Below, one piece after another: positions 999 to 63,747 of a stretch of DNA of 64,000 nt (its first letter is position 1; each line of letters starts with the position of its first letter). This stretch comes from Arthrobacter sp. UKPF54-2 (GTDB lineage Bacteria; Actinomycetota; Actinomycetes; Actinomycetales; Micrococcaceae), in NCBI RefSeq assembly GCF_007858535.1, contig NZ_CP040174.1:744001-808000 (forward strand), in the 5' to 3' direction. The notes beneath the pieces were generated by a model. That model saw nothing but the letters and a program-made list of their open reading frames with translations, was not told where the DNA came from and ran no database searches. The translations under genes and the position numbers were made by a program.

Positions 999-2069
999 AT
1001 GACCCACCCCACAGCCTCCCTGAACTACAGCGAAAGGCAGGCGGGATCTCTGCGGACCGGGGATCTGCTGCTCCTGCCCGACGCCGAACGCACCGCCGAG
1101 ATCGTGCGCGTGGACGTCGACAACGACGATTTCGGTTCCCCTGCCATCGTGCGCGCCACCCTCACCGGGGGCGGCGTGCTGCGGATCGCCGCCGGGTCCG
1201 TGGTCCTGGTCCTGGACCCCGTGCCGGACTCACCGGAAGCTTCCCCCGCCGACGGCGCGATCCCGGCGGCCGACGCGGCCGGCCCGGGCGCTGACTCCCC
1301 GGCCGACTCCGGGGACGACTCCGCGGACGGCGGCGCCCCCGGACTGCAGCTGGTTGAGCACCTTCCCGACGGCGACGGCGCACCCGCGGCTCCCGGCGTC
1401 GTCGTCCCTCCCCGTCCGGTGGCCCCGCCGGTGGCCAGCGGCCCCAGCGAAGCGGACCTGGCCCTAATTCCGGCCGCGGACGGAACCCCCGAGTCGGTTG
1501 TGGAAGCCGCGGCCGAAGCGCACCCCGACGCACTCGGGGTGCTGCTGCTCAGCGACCGGCTCACCAAGGGCATCAACACCAAGTCCGGCAGCTGCCTCAA
1601 GGACCTCAGCGACCTGGCCCATGAACTCTTTGTGGTGCTCAAAGACGCGGAGAACGCCCTCGCCGTCGCGGACCTGCTCAACGTGCTCCCCTTCGACGGG
1701 AACCCGGGCCGCTGGGCCTCGGTGGAGGCGTCGCTGGCGCTGGCCAGCTACATTTGCCGCCAGCGCGGGGAGGAAGAACGCGCCGAGGTTTACGAGAAGT
1801 TCCTCCGGGCGCCGGACGAGATGGAGACGGACCCGTTCAAGGCCCGGATCAACGCCAAGGTGCGCCAGCGTTCCCTCAACGAGCCGAACCTGTATGACAA
1901 GGAAATCTTCCGGGCGATCGACAACTCCAACCCGGACGCGGAGCGTGAATGGCGGCTGCTGCGGCTCGAGGCGCTGCTCTTCCTGCGCGCGCACGGCGGC
2001 TCCCAGACCATCGGCGCCCCCGAACTGGAGCGGCGGATCGGCAACGAGCTCGAGTCGGTCCGCGGCTGA
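999..2069 (+). CDS. Conserved hypothetical protein with Ala/Pro/Asp-rich linker and helical C-terminal domain
   Basis: 356 aa, ATG start with AAGGA upstream at about 987-991. A TAGACT hexamer at 958-963 could be the -10 element. Residues 1-75 form a small beta-rich domain (RTGDLLLLPDAERTAEIV...LRIAAGSVVLVLD). Residues ~78-160 are a low-complexity Ala/Pro/Gly/Asp linker, and residues ~165-356 are an all-helical domain (LLLSDRLTKGINTKSGSCLKD, then repeated helices). There is no signal peptide or membrane segment. I do not recognise a functional family. The two-domain architecture with a disordered acidic linker suggests a cytoplasmic adaptor or regulatory protein, but that is only inference. 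Confidence 0.7.
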   Translation: MTHPTASLNYSERQAGSLRTGDLLLLPDAERTAEIVRVDVDNDDFGSPAIVRATLTGGGVLRIAAGSVVLVLDPVPDSPEASPADGAIPAADAAGPGADSPADSGDDSADGGAPGLQLVEHLPDGDGAPAAPGVVVPPRPVAPPVASGPSEADLALIPAADGTPESVVEAAAEAHPDALGVLLLSDRLTKGINTKSGSCLKDLSDLAHELFVVLKDAENALAVADLLNVLPFDGNPGRWASVEASLALASYICRQRGEEERAEVYEKFLRAPDEMETDPFKARINAKVRQRSLNEPNLYDKEIFRAIDNSNPDAEREWRLLRLEALLFLRAHGGSQTIGAPELERRIGNELESVRG

Positions 2070-2115
2070 CCGTTTGGCCCTACCCCGCCGCGGCCGTGCG
2101 TTGTAGATTCACCCC

Positions 2116-2841
2116 ATGACGAACAATCTCAGCGTGGTGATCAACTCCGACGCGCCGCAGGTCTGGACGATGCTGCGCGAACCCGCGAAAGTGGCCCAGT
2201 GGCACGGCTGGGAGGCCGACGACCAGGCCGCCGAGATCAACGCGATCTACTTCGGCCCCGACGTGGTCGAGAGCGCGGACCATACCTCCCTCGTCGTCGA
2301 CGGCGGCGATATCTTTACCCTGAAACCGGTCCCCACCGGCACGGAAGTCAGCGTGACACGCGCGGCCATCGACCATGACTCGGAGTGGGCGGCCTGGGAC
2401 GAGGACATCACCCAGGGCTGGCTGACGTTCCTGCACCAGCTGCGGTTCGCCCTGGAGCACCACCCGCACGGCAAACGGCGGACGTTTTTCTTCTCGGTCC
2501 CCGGCACCGGGGGCTCGGCGATCGACAAACTGGGCCTGTCCGACGTCCCCAAACCCGGCGAGCCGTACGCGCTCACCCTGGCCACGGGCGAGGAGATTTC
2601 GGGCAAGGTCTGGTTCCGCAGCAACCACCAGGTGGGCCTGACCGTGCACAGCTACGCCGAGCACGGCGACGGACTGGTCATTGTGGCGGACCAGCCCGTC
2701 ATCCCCGACCTCCGGCCCGACGGCGGCTCGCTGGGGATCATCTCCACCTACGATCTCGGCGCCCACCAGCTCGACGCCATCCGCGGCCGCTGGGACACCT
2801 GGCGGGCTGAGAACTACCCCACATCGGACCCGCTGCACTAA
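2116..2841 (+). CDS. SRPBCC (START-like/AHSA1-type) domain protein
   Basis: 241 aa, ATG start. TAGATT at 2104-2109 leaves almost no leader. The N-terminus (NNLSVVINSDAPQVWTMLREPAKVAQWHGW) is the typical opening strand, helix and W-H-G-W of polyketide-cyclase/AHSA1-like SRPBCC folds. DSEWAAWDEDITQGWLTFLHQLRFALE is the long C-terminal helix that closes the hydrophobic cavity, around residues 92-118. A second half (residues ~125-241) ending RGRWDTWRAENYP may be a divergent second copy. The ligand is unknown. No partner gene indicates a pathway; the next gene starts 33 bp downstream. Confidence 0.72.
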   Translation: MTNNLSVVINSDAPQVWTMLREPAKVAQWHGWEADDQAAEINAIYFGPDVVESADHTSLVVDGGDIFTLKPVPTGTEVSVTRAAIDHDSEWAAWDEDITQGWLTFLHQLRFALEHHPHGKRRTFFFSVPGTGGSAIDKLGLSDVPKPGEPYALTLATGEEISGKVWFRSNHQVGLTVHSYAEHGDGLVIVADQPVIPDLRPDGGSLGIISTYDLGAHQLDAIRGRWDTWRAENYPTSDPLH

Positions 2842-2874
2842 GGCTTCCGCGGTGTTAGCTGGCACACTTGAACC

Positions 2875-4173
2875 GTGCCAGCCAATCCTGACTTTGCGTC
2901 CACGCCCGCCGCGCCTGCCAAGCAGTCCGAGTTTTCCTTCCGGGTGGGCAAGCGCCTGAGCGAAACGTGCTCGCCGTCGGCCGCGCAGGTTGCCGCCAAC
3001 GGCGGGGAGTTCCTGGGCCGGACCGGCACCATCACCACCCCGCACGGCGAGATCCAGACCCCGGCGTTCATCGCCGTCGGCACCAAGGCCACGGTCAAAT
3101 CCGTGCTGCCGGAGTCCGTCGCCGAGCTCGGCGCGCAGGCCGTGCTGGCCAACGCCTACCACCTGTACCTGCAGCCCGGCGCGGACATCCTGGACGAGGC
3201 CGGCGGCCTGGGCGCCTTTATGAACTGGCGCGGGCCCACCTTCACGGACTCCGGCGGGTTCCAGGTGATGAGCCTGGGATCCGGGTTCAAGAAGGTCATC
3301 GACATGAAATCGGTGGACACTTCAGGGCCGGACGACGCCGTCGCCCCCGGCAAGGAACGCCTCGCCCACGTGGACGAGGAGGGTGTGTGGTTCAAAAGCC
3401 ACCTCAACGGCGACCGGCACCGGTTCAGCCCCGAGATCTCGATGAACGTCCAGCACCAGATCGGCGCGGACATCATGTTCGCATTCGATGAACTGACGAC
3501 GCTGCAGAACTCCCGGGGCTACCAGGAGGAGTCCCTAGAACGCACCCGCCGCTGGGCCGAGCGGTGCATCACCGAGCACTTCCGGCTTACGGAGCAGCGC
3601 GCCGGCAAGCCGTACCAGGCCCTGTTCGGGGTCATCCAGGGCGCGCAGTACGAGGACCTGCGCCGCAAAGCGTGCCGGGACCTCGGCGCGATGAACTTCG
3701 ACGGCTTCGGCATCGGCGGTGCACTGGAGAAGGAGAACCTGGGCACCATCGTGCGCTGGTGCAACGAGGAACTGCCGGAAAACAAGCCGCGGCACCTCCT
3801 CGGCATCTCCGAGCCGGATGACATTTTTACCGCAATCGAGAACGGCGCGGACACCTTCGACTGCGTCTCCCCCACCCGGGTGGCCCGCAACTCGGCCTTC
3901 TACCACCCCACCGGCCGGTACAACCTCTCCGGCGCCATGTACAAGCGCGACTTCGGCCCGCTCCAGGAAGGCTGCGACTGCTACGCCTGCCTGAACTACT
4001 CCCGGGCCTACATCCACCACCTGTTCAAGGCCAAGGAAATGGTCTCCGCCACGCTGATCTCGATCCACAACGAGCGCTTCGTGGTGAAGATGGTCGACGA
4101 CGCCCGCCGCGCCATCGAAGACGGCACCTTCTTCGAGTTCAAGGCCGAAACCCTGGGCCTGTACTACTCCTAG
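2875..4173 (+). CDS. tgt: tRNA-guanine(34) transglycosylase
   Basis: 432 aa, GTG start. The enzyme exchanges guanine-34 of GUN-anticodon tRNAs (Asp, Asn, His, Tyr) for a queuosine precursor. Seen here: the catalytic Asp of DSGGFQV (residue 125), the second Asp in FDCVSPTRVARN (about residue 329), and the zinc site CDCYAC plus a downstream His (about residues 365-398). A ~25-residue insert after residue 140 (VIDMKSVDTSGPDDAVAPGK) is common in actinobacterial forms. No queC/D/E/F genes are in the window. A YhhQ-type precursor transporter lies 2 kb downstream, so salvage of queuine or preQ1/preQ0 is a reasonable inference. Confidence 0.96.
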   Translation: MPANPDFASTPAAPAKQSEFSFRVGKRLSETCSPSAAQVAANGGEFLGRTGTITTPHGEIQTPAFIAVGTKATVKSVLPESVAELGAQAVLANAYHLYLQPGADILDEAGGLGAFMNWRGPTFTDSGGFQVMSLGSGFKKVIDMKSVDTSGPDDAVAPGKERLAHVDEEGVWFKSHLNGDRHRFSPEISMNVQHQIGADIMFAFDELTTLQNSRGYQEESLERTRRWAERCITEHFRLTEQRAGKPYQALFGVIQGAQYEDLRRKACRDLGAMNFDGFGIGGALEKENLGTIVRWCNEELPENKPRHLLGISEPDDIFTAIENGADTFDCVSPTRVARNSAFYHPTGRYNLSGAMYKRDFGPLQEGCDCYACLNYSRAYIHHLFKAKEMVSATLISIHNERFVVKMVDDARRAIEDGTFFEFKAETLGLYYS

Positions 4174-4243
4174 GCTTCTGCCGGGGCCCATCCGGGCGCC
4201 AAACCCTGGACGGGCTCCTAGCTGCGTCGGCTATCCTGACCGG

Positions 4244-4993
4244 ATGTTTATCGAGATTCCTGCCGCTGACGGCACAGCCGAGGCCCTCGTGGCGCGTCCT
4301 TCGACCGGCGAGGGCCCCTTCCCGGGCGTCATCTTCTACATGGACGCCTTCGGCCTGCGCCCCCGCATCCAGGAGATGGCGCAGCGCATCGCCGACTGGG
4401 GGTACGTCGTCCTCGCCCCCAACGTCTTCTACCGCGAAGGCACGGCAGCGGAACTGGCGCCGGCCGGTGACATGGGCACACCGGAGGGCCGTGAGGCCGC
4501 CGGCGCCGCGGCGTTCCCCCGGGTCGGGCGCCTCACCTCGGACAAGGCGCTGCCGGACATCGACGCCTGGCTACGTGATCTTCGCGAGCTCGACGGCGTC
4601 GCGGACGGCCCCATCGGCGTCACCGGTTATTGCATGGGTGCACGCCTCGCGGTCCGCACCGCCAACGCCCACCCGGATCAGGTCGCGGCGTGCGGCGGCT
4701 TCCACGGCGGGGGCCTGGCCACCGACGAGCCGGACAGCCCGCACCTGGGGCTGGAGCATGCCCGTGCCACGTTCGTGTTCGGCCATGCCGACCATGACCG
4801 CAGCATGGGGCCCGACGCCGTCGCGCGGCTGGGCGAGGCGCTCGACGCGGCAGGGCTGACCGCCATCAACACGATTTACGACGGCGCCCCGCACGGCTAC
4901 TCGATGGCGGATACTTCGGCGTTCCACCCGGAAGCCACGGAACGGCACTTCCGCGAGCTCCGCGACCTCCTCGACGGGACACTCAAGGCCTGA
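4244..4993 (+). CDS. Dienelactone hydrolase family protein
   Basis: 249 aa, ATG start. Alpha/beta-hydrolase with a cysteine nucleophile: GYCMGAR (C130), HADHD (D183) and PHGYSM (H217) form the Cys/Asp/His triad of the DLH family, whose reference enzyme opens the dienelactone ring to maleylacetate. No chloroaromatic catabolism genes surround it, so the physiological ester or lactone substrate is unknown. Cytoplasmic, no signal peptide. Stop codon is 17 bp before a long palindrome (5011-5080) that may terminate its transcript. Confidence 0.9.
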   Translation: MFIEIPAADGTAEALVARPSTGEGPFPGVIFYMDAFGLRPRIQEMAQRIADWGYVVLAPNVFYREGTAAELAPAGDMGTPEGREAAGAAAFPRVGRLTSDKALPDIDAWLRDLRELDGVADGPIGVTGYCMGARLAVRTANAHPDQVAACGGFHGGGLATDEPDSPHLGLEHARATFVFGHADHDRSMGPDAVARLGEALDAAGLTAINTIYDGAPHGYSMADTSAFHPEATERHFRELRDLLDGTLKA

Positions 4994-5010: not shown

Positions 5011-5080
5011 GCCGTTTCGACGGTTCCCTGCGTGCTCGATGTAACCAGACAGCCGTTCTGCAGGGAGCCGTCGAAACGGC
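5011..5080. repeat. Long palindrome, family A (copy A1), upstream of nuclease gene
   Basis: Arms 5011-5031 and 5060-5080 are reverse complements with one mismatch (GCCGTTTCGACGG core), separated by ~28 nt. Related copies lie at 6077-6146 and 9553-9620. The left arm and beginning of the loop match copy A3 over about 30 nt with only two differences. There is no T-tract, so a simple intrinsic terminator is not obvious. Confidence 0.9.
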
Positions 5081-5141
5081 GTTGTCCACATACCCCCACG
5101 GCGCTCTGGAGCAAGCCCGGCGCTTGGTCAATGCTGGTCCC

Positions 5142-6104
5142 ATGCCCACCAAACTTCCCGATGCCGGGACCCTCTGGCGCACGGATCAGCTTTTGGCATC
5201 CGGACGAAATTCCCGGGCCATTGCCAGACACGTCCGGGACGGAAGCCTCGTCCGGCTCCGCCGTGGCTGCTACGCCCGCGGCGAGTGGTGGCGGGGCCTC
5301 GATGCCCCATCCCGACGTCGGCAGCTGATTTCTGCGCATGCGCTTGGAACGCTGACGACGTCGGCGGGAGGCTTCGTGTACAGCCACATCTCAGGTGCCA
5401 GCCTCCATGAACTCCAGCTGTGGAAGGTCGATGACCGCGTGCACCTGACGCAGAACGGCTGCCCCTCGGGATTTTCGCACGGGCGCGACGTTGTCGCCCA
5501 CACCAGGCGGGTGACAAGCCGCGAGATGTGCTTCGTGGACGGATTGCCGTGCACGTCCCTGGAACGCACGGTCGTGGATTGCTGCCTGATGTTCACCGTG
5601 CCGCAGGCTTTGATCCTGATCGACCATGCGGCGCGCCTGGGGGCGGACCTCGGCATGATCCGCGCCCAGTGTGCCGCCCTCGCGGGGCGTAACGGCGTGG
5701 TGGCGCTGCGCCGGGCCCTCGAGTTGGCTGATCCTCGCTCCGAATCAGCCGGGGAGAGCCTGACGAGGGAACTGCTGCACCGGATCGGGATTGCGCCGCC
5801 GGAGGTGCAGTACAGCGTTCTGACGCCGCTCGGGGAATACCGGCTGGACTTAGCCTGGCCCGAGCGCAAGGTCGCCCTCGAGTTCGACGGCAAGAGCAAG
5901 TACTTCGCCTACCGGCCCACGGGAGAGGTCCTATTCGCGGAGCGGCAGCGCGAGAAGGCGCTGACGGAGCAGGGCTGGACGTTCCTCCGCGTCGAGTGGA
6001 GGGACCTGTTCAACGAGGTGGAGTTCAAATACCGGGTCCTGCGGGCGCTAAACCGCGGCGCGGGGGCTGGCTCCGCGCCGTTTCGACGATCCGCTGCCGG
6101 CTAG
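5142..6104 (+). CDS. AbiEi-like winged-helix / DUF559 (PD-(D/E)XK, Vsr-like) nuclease-type protein
   Basis: 320 aa from the ATG at 5142; the frame is open further upstream to about 5082, but that part overlaps the palindrome region and looks non-coding. Residues ~9-50 (LWRTDQLLASGRNSRAIARH...LVRLRRGCYA) match the N-terminal winged-helix of AbiEi-type antitoxins. Residues ~150-190 contain CTSLERTVVDCC. The C-terminus has a PD-(D/E)XK-like core: D236 in RLDLAWPE, E247-F-D-G-K251, then a helix and WTFLRVEW. There is no AbiEii toxin gene beside it, so this is not a standard toxin-antitoxin pair. Family A palindromes flank it on both sides and the downstream one encodes its last residues and stop codon. 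It is paralogous in architecture to the gene at 50584-51525. Confidence 0.8.
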   Translation: MPTKLPDAGTLWRTDQLLASGRNSRAIARHVRDGSLVRLRRGCYARGEWWRGLDAPSRRRQLISAHALGTLTTSAGGFVYSHISGASLHELQLWKVDDRVHLTQNGCPSGFSHGRDVVAHTRRVTSREMCFVDGLPCTSLERTVVDCCLMFTVPQALILIDHAARLGADLGMIRAQCAALAGRNGVVALRRALELADPRSESAGESLTRELLHRIGIAPPEVQYSVLTPLGEYRLDLAWPERKVALEFDGKSKYFAYRPTGEVLFAERQREKALTEQGWTFLRVEWRDLFNEVEFKYRVLRALNRGAGAGSAPFRRSAAG

Positions 6105-6146
6105 ACGCTTACCGGCGTCGAGCGGGCACGGAAGCGTCGAAACGGC
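6077..6146. repeat. Long palindrome, family A (copy A2), overlapping nuclease stop codon
   Basis: Outer arms GCCGTTTCGACG (from 6077) and CGTCGAAACGGC (to 6146) are complementary, with imperfect inner pairing. The left arm is translated as the last residues (about APFRRSAAG) and TAG stop of the nuclease gene. It sits at a convergent junction with the yhhQ-type gene and may also act as a bidirectional terminator. Confidence 0.88.
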
Positions 6147-6163
6147 GGATTTTGCGGGCGGAG

Positions 6164-9552: not shown

Positions 9553-9620
9553 CCGTTTCGACGGTTCCCTGCGCGCTAGATGGCACGTGACATCGAAGCT
9601 GCACGGAACCGTCGAAACGG
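9553..9620. repeat. Long palindrome, family A (solo copy A3)
   Basis: Arms CCGTTTCGACGGTTCC (9553-9568) and GGAACCGTCGAAACGG (9605-9620) are perfect complements; the centre holds a second near-palindrome, GATGGCACGTGACATC. It has no nuclease gene beside it and separates the convergent pdxK and serpin genes. Confidence 0.9.
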
Positions 9621-18110: not shown

Positions 18111-18175
18111 GCGCGAACGGCAATTTGAGGCCCGTGTTTTCTCGGAAAACTCGGGCCTCAAGTGTCCGTTCGCGC
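18111..18175. repeat. Long palindrome, family B (copy B1)
   Basis: GCGCGAACGG (18111-18120) pairs with CCGTTCGCGC (18166-18175), and TTGAGGCCCG with CGGGCCTCAA, with an AT-rich GTTTTC/GAAAAC apex. The 3' 16-mer AAGTGTCCGTTCGCGC is identical in copy B2 (20908-20923). Located between convergent aceB and the CynX-type transporter gene. Confidence 0.9.
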
Positions 18176-20865: not shown

Positions 20866-20923
20866 GCGCGAACGCACCCCTGCGGCCCCAAAAAGCCGCG
20901 GGGCCCCAAGTGTCCGTTCGCGC
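20866..20923. repeat. Long palindrome, family B (copy B2)
   Basis: GCGCGAACG (20866-20874) pairs with CGTTCGCGC (20915-20923); inner arms GCGGCCCC/GGGGCC surround an A-rich apex. The 3' 16-mer AAGTGTCCGTTCGCGC is identical to B1. Between convergent genes; ends one base before the neighbouring stop codon. Confidence 0.88.
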
Positions 20924-33157: not shown

Positions 33158-33546
33158 AGTAGCTTCTGAATCAAAAGCAGATACTAGACTACCTGACATT
33201 CCCGGCTTAGCCCAATTCGGCCCTCCGGCCCGCCACCACCGGACATGCCCAGCGCTCACTCCGGGCTTTGGACATAGCCTGTATATGACCAGTCCAAGGC
33301 TCAAAGAATGGGCATGCCCATCCCTTCCTGGCACGGCCACACTCCGCATCAGGATGGACATGCCCGGCGTTCACGGCGCCCGTTGGACATATTCCCAATA
33401 TGCCCACGCTCCAGCCCGAAGGATGGGCATGTCCGTCCCTTGCCCCGCTGGCCGCACTCCCCGAAGGATGGGCATGTCCGTCCGGCCCACCCAAGGCCAT
33501 CGAGCCGGATTCGGGGCAGGCCCGATCGTCGGGTAAAGTAGTCGTC
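33158..33546. other. Gene-free region with GGACATGTCC-type dispersed repeats (cluster G1)
   Basis: No convincing gene. At least six words of the type TGGACATGCCC, GGGCATGCCC or GGGCATGTCC occur between 33240 and 33485, twice inside the longer word AAGGATGGGCATGTCCGTCC (33419 and 33465). Each core is a partial palindrome; some are separated from a complementary partner by 10-15 nt. The same words form cluster G2 at 37905-38245 across the dnaX-recR locus. Confidence 0.8.
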
Positions 33547-37889: not shown

Positions 37890-38543
37890 CCCGGCCGGCA
37901 TATCCGGGCCGCATGTCCGGACCGCGACCCGCATACCCCTCCGTGACCCCTTCACGCCCATTGCGTGGCGTCGCCTGCCGGACATGTCCATCCGGTCGAC
38001 CCAAGAACGGACATAGTGGATTCTGTCCACTCCCGGGCACGCACACTGGGCATGTCCATCCATGGTCTAGCCGCCCCCCGGCCCAGGAGTGGACATGCGC
38101 AACGTCCCCGCCGGATATGTCCATCGCGTCGGCCCAGGAGTGGACATGCGCAACATCGCCGCCGGACATGTCCATCGCGTCGGCCCAGGAATGGACATAG
38201 TGGGATTATGTCCATTCCCCGGCGCGCAGACTGGGCATGTCCGTCCGTGGCCCGGCTGCCCAAGCCCGCAGTCAGCCAGCCCCAGCCCGCAGTCAGCCAG
38301 CTCTGCCCCGCAGCCGGCCCCACCCACCCCAGCCCGCAGTCAGCCATCCCGGACCGGGCCGGCCCGGAACCAGCCCCACCCAGACCCCGCCCCATCGGCC
38401 CCAGTCAGCACCCCCGTTCGGTCACAATTGAACGCCGGGCCGCCAGCGGCGATAAACTGGGCGGAGAAGTCGCCGTCGCGCCGTTTGGCCGCGCCGTTGA
38501 GCGGCTTTGCCCAGAACCCCGATGATCCAGTGAGGGTGCGCGC
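37890..38543. other. 654-bp gene-free region with repeat cluster G2 and three short direct repeats
   Basis: No gene is supported, although all frames stay open. From 37905 to 38245 the words GGACATGTCC, GGACATGCGC, GGACATAGTG and GGGCATGTCC recur about ten times, including a hairpin GAATGGACATA/TATGTCCATTC near 38190-38220 and a 51-bp tandem duplication (38089-38190). From about 38262 to 38345, AGCCCGCAGTCAGCCA occurs three times. The last ~100 bp should hold the lysC promoter. Confidence 0.85.
38089..38190. repeat. 51-bp tandem repeat, two copies
   Basis: Units at 38089-38139 and 38140-38190 both start GTGGACATGCGCAAC and end CGCGTCGGCCCAGGA with three or four differences. Part of cluster G2. 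Confidence 0.93.
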
Positions 38544-50520: not shown

Positions 50521-50576
50521 CGGCTGCTCCGTAACTGCCCTTTTGAGCCCTCAAAACGGCAGCTACGGAGCAGCCG
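50521..50576. repeat. Long palindrome, family C (copy C1), downstream of second nuclease gene
   Basis: 27-bp arms with two mismatches and a 2-nt loop: CGGCTGCTCCGTAACTGCC pairs with GGCAGCTACGGAGCAGCCG, with a CTTTTGAG/CTCAAAAC apex. Ends 7 bp from the nuclease stop and also separates it from purL. Confidence 0.93.
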
Positions 50577-50583
50577 TTTCGGT

Positions 50584-51525
50584 TCAGCGGCCGGGGCGCC
50601 AGCCGGCTTGGACCAGGGCCACCCGGACCTTCGCCACGGCCGCCCTGGCGTCATTCGCCATATGGCGCTGGGAGATCCGGACCTCGGACCAGCCAAGCGC
50701 CTTGTAACGCTCCGAACGGGCGATGTCCCGGACGATCTGAGCCGGGTCGCCGTGGTGTTCGCCCTCGTATTCGACGCCGATCTTGTATTTCCGATAAGAC
50801 ATGTCGGGTTCGTGGTGACGCGCCCCCGCATCGTCGATGATCGGCACGTTCAGCTCCGGCTCCGGAAGGCCGGCACGGACCAGCGCAAGCCTGAGCAGGG
50901 ATTCCTGCGGCGAATCCGAGCCGACGCGGATCAGGGTGATCGCTTCCTTGGCCTTCCTGATACCTCGTTTTCCTTTGTGCCGGTCGATCATCCGCTGCAA
51001 GTCCTCCAGTCTGCAGAGGGGCAGCTCCCGGCCCTCAAACTCAGGCCGGGGTACCCGGACGCAACTGTCCCCCGCCACCACGAGTTCGTCCACAGTCAGC
51101 ATTTCGGCCAGGTCGAGCCAGGTTCGCTCCGGCGTTGTCAGGGGTATTCCGTTCAGGACCGTCACCTCGTCCTCGTAGAGCTTCATTCGGTGGACGATCA
51201 CATGGGGCCGGTTGAGATGGGCTGCGCCCTCGGGCCTGATTATGTGGTACATCGGCGGTTCCTCCCTCTGCCGCCGCGCCGGAAGCGAGCCAAGCTCCGC
51301 CGCGGTGAAGTGCGACGCGGCGCATCGCTCATTGACCTCAATGAATGGCCGCACCCGCACGCTCAACGGGAGTCCCGACGTCGGGCCGTCCGACCGGAGG
51401 CCCCTACCCAGCAGGGCGAGGGAACGGTGCCGGAGCCGTTTGGGCTTCACACCTGCCAGGTTGGCCGCGGCAACGGTGAACGGAAGGCCCTGAAATTCCT
51501 GCGGGAGCGGACGTGCTGTCTTCAT
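50584..51525 (-). CDS. DUF559 (PD-(D/E)XK, Vsr-like) nuclease-type protein, AbiEi-related
   Basis: 313 aa from the ATG at 51525; the frame is open further upstream through palindrome C2 but is unlikely to be coding there. The middle (VTVLNGIPLTTPERTWLDLAEML) corresponds to the LPCTSLERTVVD segment of the gene at 5142-6104. The nuclease-like core is EPDMSYRKYKIGVEYEGEHH followed by RYKALGWSEVRISQRHM, with D and E-x-E spaced as in PD-(D/E)XK folds. The N-terminal winged helix is less obvious than in the first copy. Family C palindromes bracket it. No partner toxin or methylase is adjacent. Confidence 0.78.
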   Translation of the reverse strand: MKTARPLPQEFQGLPFTVAAANLAGVKPKRLRHRSLALLGRGLRSDGPTSGLPLSVRVRPFIEVNERCAASHFTAAELGSLPARRQREEPPMYHIIRPEGAAHLNRPHVIVHRMKLYEDEVTVLNGIPLTTPERTWLDLAEMLTVDELVVAGDSCVRVPRPEFEGRELPLCRLEDLQRMIDRHKGKRGIRKAKEAITLIRVGSDSPQESLLRLALVRAGLPEPELNVPIIDDAGARHHEPDMSYRKYKIGVEYEGEHHGDPAQIVRDIARSERYKALGWSEVRISQRHMANDARAAVAKVRVALVQAGWRPGR

Positions 51526-51579
51526 TGGCCCATCAGAGCAGACCGGTGCTCGGGCCGCAGAAGTTATCCACACCACCCA

Positions 51580-51637
51580 TCGACTGCTCCGTAAGCGCCG
51601 TTTTGACGCTTCAAAAGGGCGTCTTCGGAGCAATCGA
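51580..51637. repeat. Long palindrome, family C (copy C2), upstream of second nuclease gene
   Basis: Arms TCGACTGCTCCGTAAG and the complementary CTTCGGAGCAATCGA side, with apex GTTTTGACGCTTCAAAA. About 55 bp upstream of the nuclease start. Shares TGCTCCGTA and inner TTTTGA with C1 and C3. Confidence 0.92.
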
Positions 51638-51691: not shown

Positions 51692-51985
51692 TCAGTCGTC
51701 GCTGCGGAGTTCGCGCTGGCGGGCGCTGAGCAGTTCCAGTTCCGGCCTCGCCGCCACAAAACGTTCGACGGCGGTCAGCACCTCCACGAGGTGCGCCCGG
51801 TCCGCCGCGACCAGGCCTGCGCCGATCACGGTGCGCCGGTACTGGTCGTGGAACTCGGCCTCGGTCACCGAAACGTCGAAGCGGCGCCTGAGCTCTGCCA
51901 GTAGCGGCCGCACCACGGAGCGTTTCTCCTTCAGGCTGTGCACGTCGCCCAGGAGGACATCGAATTCAATCCAGCCGATCCACAT
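51692..51985 (-). CDS. DUF503 family protein
   Basis: 97 aa, ATG. MWIGWIEFDVLLGDVHSLKEKRSVVRPLLAELRRRFDVSVTEAEFHDQYRRTVIGAGLVA is a full-length DUF503 domain, a ferredoxin-like small protein. In several genomes the family lies near ribosome-maturation genes (YlxP), but its role is unknown. Here it stands between palindromes C2 and C3. Confidence 0.92.
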   Translation of the reverse strand: MWIGWIEFDVLLGDVHSLKEKRSVVRPLLAELRRRFDVSVTEAEFHDQYRRTVIGAGLVAADRAHLVEVLTAVERFVAARPELELLSARQRELRSDD

Positions 51986-51997
51986 GGCCCAAGCCTA

Positions 51998-52055
51998 TCG
52001 ATTGCTCCGTAGGCGCCCTTTAGGGGCCCCAAAAGGGCGTCTGCGGAGCAATCGA
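51998..52055. repeat. Long palindrome, family C (solo copy C3)
   Basis: TCGATTGCTCCGTAGGCGCC pairs with GGGCGTCTGCGGAGCAATCGA; apex TTTTAGGGGCCCCAAAA. Between DUF503 and the ABM-domain gene, without a nuclease of its own. Confidence 0.93.
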
Positions 52056-52070
52056 CGGGGGTGGAGCGGC

Positions 52071-63645: not shown

Positions 63646-63668
63646 CGGCACACTCCCTGGCGCCCACA

Positions 63669-63733
63669 CCCAAGTAGCTCGCAGTTGTTGTCGTTATGAG
63701 CACTCAAAACGACAACAACTGCGAGCTACTTGG
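63669..63733. repeat. Long palindrome, family D
   Basis: 31-bp arms with one mismatch and a 2-nt loop: CCAAGTAGCTCGCAGTTG at the left pairs with CAACTGCGAGCTACTTGG at the right, with a GTTATGAG/CTCAAAAC apex. Lies at the convergent end of the metY operon and the partial gene beyond. Confidence 0.95.
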
Positions 63734-63747
63734 GCTTTGGCGGGACC

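Follow-up and report, generated by a model that had tools for sequence, protein, structure and literature searches.

AbiEi-Vsr-type nuclease genes bracketed by private long palindromes in Arthrobacter and other actinomycetes: a probable REP-like partnership

We have analysed a window of 64,000 nucleotides of Arthrobacter sp. UKPF54-2 (C1:744001-808000 of a single 3.52-Mb contig; positions are window coordinates), in which two paralogous genes, nuclease A and nuclease B, each lie between two copies of a long palindrome, the palindromes of the two loci belonging to different families (Table 1). The gene of nuclease A starts with ATG at 5142 and its TAG stop codon (6102-6104) falls within the downstream palindrome. 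A preliminary description of this DNA had given the coordinates of palindrome A1 and of a solo A copy, and the protein length of 320 aa, as we find them; palindrome A2, placed there at 6077-6146, is indeed present but has the extent listed in Table 1, and the second case proposed at 50521-51637 is real, with its paralogous gene, two matching palindromes and a third copy. The protein had been described as an AbiEi-like winged helix joined to a DUF559 core. Nuclease A matches AbiEi_4 (PF13338) above the Pfam cut-off, and REase_MTES_1575 and DUF559 below theirs; the predicted fold of the C-terminal half resembles the catalytic fold of Vsr and homing endonucleases, and the acidic residues at the predicted active site are invariant.

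The extent to which such genes are bracketed by matching repeats was evaluated at loci chosen by protein similarity and not by palindrome (the best-scoring matches, 40 picked across the identity range, and the loci of the UKPF54-2 genome), each locus being scored by the best ungapped match between its 5' and 3' flanks. A search of the UKPF54-2 genome with the MTES_1575 profile, admitting E values up to 10, hit 12 places, four of which were set aside (L005, helicase-like; L007, a 126-aa fragment; L015, small and Vsr-like; L016, a remnant); these four and the duplicates L009 and L010 were removed before the comparison, leaving 106 nuclease loci, and 91 genes from 40 of these served as controls. 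The median flank score was 36.5 at the nuclease loci versus 12 in the controls, whose maximum was 20: this value was exceeded at 95 of 106 loci and in none of the 91 controls. At a threshold of at least 16 the counts were 101/106 versus 10/91, and at the laxer threshold of at least 13, where the control is no longer clean, 104/106 versus 38/91. Requiring similar palindromes in both flanks, 69 of 108 loci (the duplicates L009 and L010 included) qualified versus 0 of 91 controls. Swapping flanks among loci (300 pairs) resulted in a median of 12 and a 95th percentile of 24, the latter because some swapped pairs are orthologues; for the same 106 loci, orthologues are not independent observations. 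Among the eight intact loci of the UKPF54-2 genome, six lie above the control maximum (27, 31, 24, 42, 25 and 34). The 217 long palindromes found in flanks form 48 clusters, some of which are possibly not cognate. The palindromes of one locus match each other and those of unrelated loci differ, which is the outcome that the preliminary description had looked for: the enzyme gene has a copy of its own repeat at either end, a feature of the REPtrons formed by repetitive extragenic palindromes (REPs) and their REP-associated tyrosine transposases (RAYTs). The nuclease-palindrome partnership is well supported.

This arrangement is not confined to one genus. Among 296 genomes drawn from the whole class, 208 have the protein (E 1e-20), and in a further class set 31 of 34 loci exceed the control maximum; L255 is of the same genus and L252, L253, L254 and L256 were already among the 106, so that 29 loci are new, and of these, all from other genera, 26 exceed it. 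The same holds for 27 of 29 D-like loci; L220, L265 and L274, at contig edges, were left out of these comparisons. In the class set the brackets are clearly inverted at 20 of 34 loci and clearly direct at 2, thus having the form of terminal inverted repeats, and in four Arthrobacter-centred sets their orientation is without clear preference. One bacterial family has brackets in the form of inverted repeats bearing a tag, and there inverted doublets are dispersed as well.

A scan for exact stems (arms of at least 11) evidenced 15 in the window, whereas the counts for five first-order Markov sequences were 4, 0, 0, 3 and 0. When seven palindromes of the window were folded as single-stranded DNA, z ranged from -7.0 to -10.3. 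The idea that the palindromes are common transcription terminators, or stand next to the genes by chance, deserves hardly any credence. It is true that copies are enriched between convergent genes (see below), but the sharing of gene-specific words passes every control at the 95 loci mentioned, and the terminator-like sites called between 4900 and 9700, three versus 2.2 expected, all lie away from the three palindromes, none of which matched Rfam at the gathering threshold. Readings of the palindromes as terminators, promoters or Rfam elements were rejected, as the scans gave nothing there.

Protein and palindrome vary together. When the 5' flank of one locus is compared with the 3' flank of another over 53 loci (pairs which are not independent), flank likeness grows with protein identity (Mantel p 0.002): a flank score of at least 20 was found in 0 of 1058 pairs below 50% identity, in 21 of 190 at 50-60% and in 95 of 130 at 60% or above. 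The partial correlation is highest in the stretch 91-150, where it reaches 0.56 for residues 101-120, and rises again to 0.37 at 171-190; across the nuclease domain it is near zero or negative. Among the orthologues of A and their nearest relatives (L017-L046), the palindrome word switches between TTTCGACGG, TTTCGATGG and TCGCCGGAA near 60% protein identity; this word change is a natural specificity switch.

The position and internal plan of the palindromes are also regular. The distance from the end of the 5' palindrome to the start codon has a median of 64 bp (71 loci), and the 3' palindrome begins a median of 5 bp past the stop (85 loci), in 23 of them before it. In 24 of 48 clusters a word is repeated within the arm (score of at least 5), with a spacing of 19 or 20 bp in 18 of these 24 versus 18 of 250 such repeats in shuffled sequences; at a score of at least 8 the proportions are 9/9 versus 0/9. 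Therefore many palindromes have four sites, two per arm, on a common plan; in the B family the arm-repeat word was not seen. AbiEi is described to bind inverted repeats reaching 23 bp and placed 3 bp apart (PMC3985639), and I-Bth0305I to dimerise on nearly 60 bp (PMC3943268); the palindrome lengths suit both footprints.

Whether the duplex or a folded strand is recognised bears on a rival explanation, namely a RAYT-like mobilisation in which the nuclease would nick the foot of a hairpin folded during replication, the palindrome itself being the mobile module. The strong hairpins favour it, and in 40 GCGCGAACG copies of equal length arm pairing is 0.86 versus 0.77 when shuffled and, in the variable core, 0.64 versus 0.22-0.35 when slid, which is compatible with a hairpin route; these copies are nonetheless related, hence covariation is no proof of folding. 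The A family gave a mixed result, with an overall pairing of 0.73 versus 0.64 in shuffles and, at spacer positions 19-22, 0.37-0.50 versus 0.37-0.48 by chance: spacers this close to random favour duplex half-sites. In the family f38, copies that by reading start with AATGATCA, together with inverted doublets of them, resemble REPs and REPINs; by reading too, the A, B and GCGCGAACG families carry no GTAG-type tag at the palindrome foot, which REPs have. Vsr-type nucleases hydrolyse DNA and are not known to join it or to have a strand-transfer chemistry, hence the chemistry is likely unlike that of RAYTs. On balance we regard this route as unlikely.

Dispersed copies accompany the nucleases. Between 1 and 104 matches per genome were obtained for three palindrome families, mostly where the cognate nuclease is present. 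In the UKPF54-2 genome a strict A pattern is matched 4 times, in relatives as many as 12 times. Matches were obtained in 39 of 119 genomes, in some of them by chance within coding sequence, and the reversed pattern used as control gave one match each in 8 genomes. Among the matches listed, which do not comprise G028 and G035 (one strict match each, without a close orthologue), A-family arm words occur only where the genome has an orthologue of A or a remnant of one. The GCGCGAACG family was searched in 81 genomes of the genus, bracketing copies being counted so that the association is partly built in: copies occur in all 7 genomes with a nuclease at least 66% identical (1-21 copies) versus 4 of 45 with neither a close nor a more distant nuclease (p 2.5e-6), and G020 has a remnant nuclease and 12 copies. 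For f38, the tag AATGATCAYGTTYA is found in 6-104 copies in 8 genomes with a unit beside cysS versus 0 in 4 without it, counts that include brackets and, the pattern being derived from such units, two built-in matches per genome; the other 5 of 17 genomes searched have 0, with G319 and G223 among them carrying variant-tag units. There are f38 copies whose sharp ends are about 78 bp apart, and inverted doublets whose tags are separated by 72-273 bp. G044 has 10 strict solo A copies, of which 4 are no more than 40 kb away from the gene (p 4e-5, the distance having been picked after seeing the positions).

The repeat is dispersed in intergenic regions, with 6 of 83 copies intragenic and 7 at edges. 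In the 70 that remain (classified by crude gene calls, bracketing copies included), convergent gaps hold 40 versus 36 of 160 background gaps (p 7e-7) and divergent gaps hold 4 versus 32 of 160 (p 0.005); this placement argues against operators and agrees with insertions that are purged from promoters. It thus bears on a reading in which nothing moves, the AbiEi-like part autoregulating its gene at the 5' palindrome and the solo copies being operators or chromosome-organising sites. Indeed, AbiEi represses its own operon via inverted repeats (PMC3985639) and the 5' palindrome is located where a promoter is likely, but a repressor explains neither the second copy at the 3' end of the gene, nor invariant predicted catalytic residues, nor the variation of copies and units between species, and we find this reading quite improbable.

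The variation between species was followed at shared gene junctions, comparing one genome per species. For the junction that holds nuclease A, 24 genomes were searched and 18 loci taken, mostly chosen for lacking a close A orthologue; 12 junctions, DLH-Vut_1 or tgt-Vut_1, were readable. Four are clean (L161, L165, L167, L169) and four have a palindrome of another family (L159, and L164, L166 and L168 of B type), while L156 holds nuclease A and L157 is closed up; of the other six loci, L162 is likewise closed up, a contig end truncates L160, and the remaining four (L163, L171, L172, L173) are rearranged. The genome with the L159 palindrome, G018, has the nuclease of that family about 970 kb away (L052). 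G044 lacks both the B unit and the B solo in its syntenic region, where blocks are 82-95% identical to the window, and carries A copies, some between tgt and DLH and some at other places, that have no counterpart in the window. An insertion of G044 beside 18183 was first taken for a nuclease unit and reads as another gene. Of 16 genomes, 9 have a unit beside cysS, which points one way in 7 of them and the other way in 2. In L310-L323 the unit starts at the cysS stop codon, and in L317, L320, L321 and L323 the repeat tag supplies the TGA.

Taking these results together, the suggestion of the preliminary description, that a Vsr/DUF559-type nuclease has a REP-like partnership with a private palindrome, is supported by the matched flanks and by dispersed copies that mostly track the nuclease. 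How the partnership would work is a further step, and we lean, by a modest preference, to each unit being a one-gene selfish element whose nuclease recognises its own palindrome and spreads it by cutting and host repair. The nuclease would bind the palindrome through its AbiEi half as a dimer or tetramer, and the copy in front of the gene would probably double as its operator. Rare cutting of a palindrome may then be followed by host repair, either gene conversion between copies or end capture, which would copy the palindrome, and sometimes the entire palindrome-gene-palindrome unit, into new intergenic places; gene conversion at a solo palindrome would yield such a unit directly. Solo copies may be independent insertions, or places where the gene was lost from between its brackets. 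A near-symmetric target would account for units in both orientations, as beside cysS.

A number of observations weigh against this selfish-element interpretation. Binding, cutting and movement are steps that we infer from sequence comparisons, and both brackets look whole, so that free cutting would hit the nuclease's own locus; the interpretation needs autorepression, or some special state of the DNA, as a further assumption. Residues 1-60 of the winged helix, where a reading head would be expected, are unlinked to palindrome type (partial r about 0). Target-site duplications were not seen by eye in the one genome per species, and a clean empty site at cysS had to be withdrawn, as L313, the one genome lacking the unit that was read closely, has another, GNAT-like, gene there. 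Two loci of the UKPF54-2 genome, L011 (15) and L013 (19), stay below the highest control score of 20, though similar-looking palindromes stand on both sides of L011. GCGCGAACG copies occur without a close nuclease in G042 (12), G059 (5), G028 (4) and G027 (1), and are absent in 20 of 28 genomes with a relative 50-58% identical (present in 8). Finally, at 2 of the 12 readable A junctions (L158, L170) a lone TCGCCGGAA palindrome, of the type that brackets A orthologues elsewhere, stands without a gene. The preliminary description had named palindromes conserved at a junction lacking the gene as a sign of coincidence: this is the case at these two and not at the four clean and four other-family junctions, and the lone palindromes fit gene loss as well as prior insertion.

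Comparison with known systems indicates that the partnership functions in the manner of a REPtron without being one. The enzymes linked to REPs are HUH tyrosine transposases (PMC6006769, PMC3733652), and the likeness comprises a gene bracketed by its own palindrome, one family per enzyme, dispersed intergenic copies and, in f38, inverted doublets. The enzyme differs: Pfam matches and predicted fold point to AbiEi plus a Vsr-type nuclease rather than to a HUH Y1 tyrosine transposase, and no HUH chain is among the matches listed by VIA-align, which is not evidence of absence. Also, REP palindromes measure 20-40 bp (PMC3733652) versus mostly 50-80 here and usually exceed 100 copies per genome (PMC2817692) versus 1-104 matches here, and the hosts here are actinobacteria, for which a 2018 survey reports, in Actinobacteridae, IS-type subclass 1.1 only (PMC6006769). 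In TIRtrons, built on RAYT-like genes, inverted repeats bracket the gene and recur as here (PMC3733652), but the enzyme is again a HUH tyrosine transposase. The partnership likewise lacks a defining feature of the homing, insertion sequence and AbiE families. With the EDxHD homing endonuclease I-Bth0305I and with Vsr it shares the predicted catalytic fold, but the DNA-binding half is AbiEi-like, and a homing element interrupts its own target whereas here the dispersed palindrome, its presumed target, is whole on both sides. A simple insertion sequence was rejected: the several near-identical full copies per genome are lacking in UKPF54-2, where A has its nearest paralogue at 52% identity and B at 41% (46% for a remnant), and there is no transposase fold.

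AbiE type IV toxin-antitoxin systems share the AbiEi winged-helix N half and a long inverted-repeat site, but have the toxin AbiEii as partner, none of which was seen at the two window loci (the 97-aa open reading frame next to B, 51692-51985, was not searched), where a nuclease domain is fused instead; the toxin-antitoxin reading was rejected on this ground. The 7 proteins tested all have hits among the AbiEi models of PADLOC (best E from 1.4e-12 to 6.2e-4), which would suit a domesticated defence nuclease whose chromosomal palindromes serve the host as marks, decoys or sinks; the missing partner gene at both window loci, and a private palindrome per gene with patchy presence, which looks selfish and not useful, make this very unlikely. 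NCBIfam has a name for 1 of 4 proteins only, far under its cut-off. MTES_1575 appears as a Vsr-type domain in a HEPN study (PMC3710099), and RepRanger gives palindrome counts for an Arthrobacter, with no words starting with RAYT, transposase or nuclease in its main text (PMC12306157). Among the matches listed from the open-access literature, subscription papers and preprints being outside its scope, there is no paper on DUF559/AbiEi proteins with cognate palindromes.

Table 1. Coordinates of nuclease genes and palindromes in the window
Feature	Position	Strand	Remarks	Hairpin z
Palindrome A1	5011-5080		5' bracket of nuclease A	-7.8
Nuclease A gene	5142-6104	+	320 aa; AbiEi-like N half ~1-197, Vsr/I-Bth0305I-like C domain ~202-308
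Palindrome A2	6076-6147		3' bracket of nuclease A, holds its stop codon	-8.2
Solo A palindrome	9553-9620		relative G044 has a copy at the matching place, judged by coordinates
Palindrome B	50521-50576		3' bracket of nuclease B	-8.7
Nuclease B gene	50584-51525	-	313 aa; AbiEi/Vsr-type paralogue with a different palindrome family
Palindrome B	51580-51637		5' bracket of nuclease B	-7.0
Solo B palindrome (third B copy)	51989-52064		absent from the syntenic place in relative G044
Solo palindrome, GCGCGAACG family	18111-18175		nuclease of the family is in other genomes
Second solo palindrome, GCGCGAACG family	20866-20923		less regular
GGACATG/ATGGACATA-family palindromes	38024-38243		words also flank nuclease L006 of the same genome; matched by reading

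The window holds further palindromes. For the GCGCGAACG family, the nearest relative of its nuclease in the UKPF54-2 genome is 57% identical and has different flank words. By reading, palindromes with ATGGACATA and GGGCATGTCC words (those of the last row of Table 1 and another at 33352-33438) resemble those around L006 (C1:2191376). At 63661-63742 there is a near-perfect palindrome of 82 bp, similar to the family of the B-like nucleases L139-L142, and of this type of gene the UKPF54-2 genome holds a remnant only (L198, C1:1795658-1796179). Judging from Pfam matches, which also name TGT (tgt) and a class I (C) tRNA synthetase (called cysS), the neighbours of nuclease A are DLH and Vut_1 family proteins and one neighbour of B is a PurL-like AIRS protein; the neighbour labels GNAT, PAC2 and IS21 are presumed from the sequence. 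Elsewhere, a repeat with the word CCTCGCAAGCTCGGCCAGGGAACCC splits the B palindrome in L166 and L168, in opposite orientations, and occurs in tandem in G044 (L148, ~2560-2700); six A-family palindromes lie within 1.4 kb of L115 (genome G034, ~877-2264), in a stretch that reads as low-complexity and GC-rich; and in L193 (genome G044, 1946-4525) what we take to be an IS21-like gene pair lies between two GCGCGAACG palindromes.

For the actinomycetes at large, we regard as evenly balanced the proposal of a class-wide, nuclease-driven counterpart of REPs, in which AbiEi-Vsr nucleases with private four-site palindromes on the 19-20 bp plan would spread by cutting and host repair. If true, REP-like systems would have two or more separate origins, each built on an unrelated enzyme, and pairs of a repeat and an enzyme could be selfish without a transposase. 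The origin of many actinobacterial palindromes would be explained, and many proteins filed as antitoxins or as nucleases of unknown function would gain a concrete job. Since each protein is paired with a matching palindrome, its DNA code can be tested directly, and nucleases with long targets and many specificities may be useful as tools.
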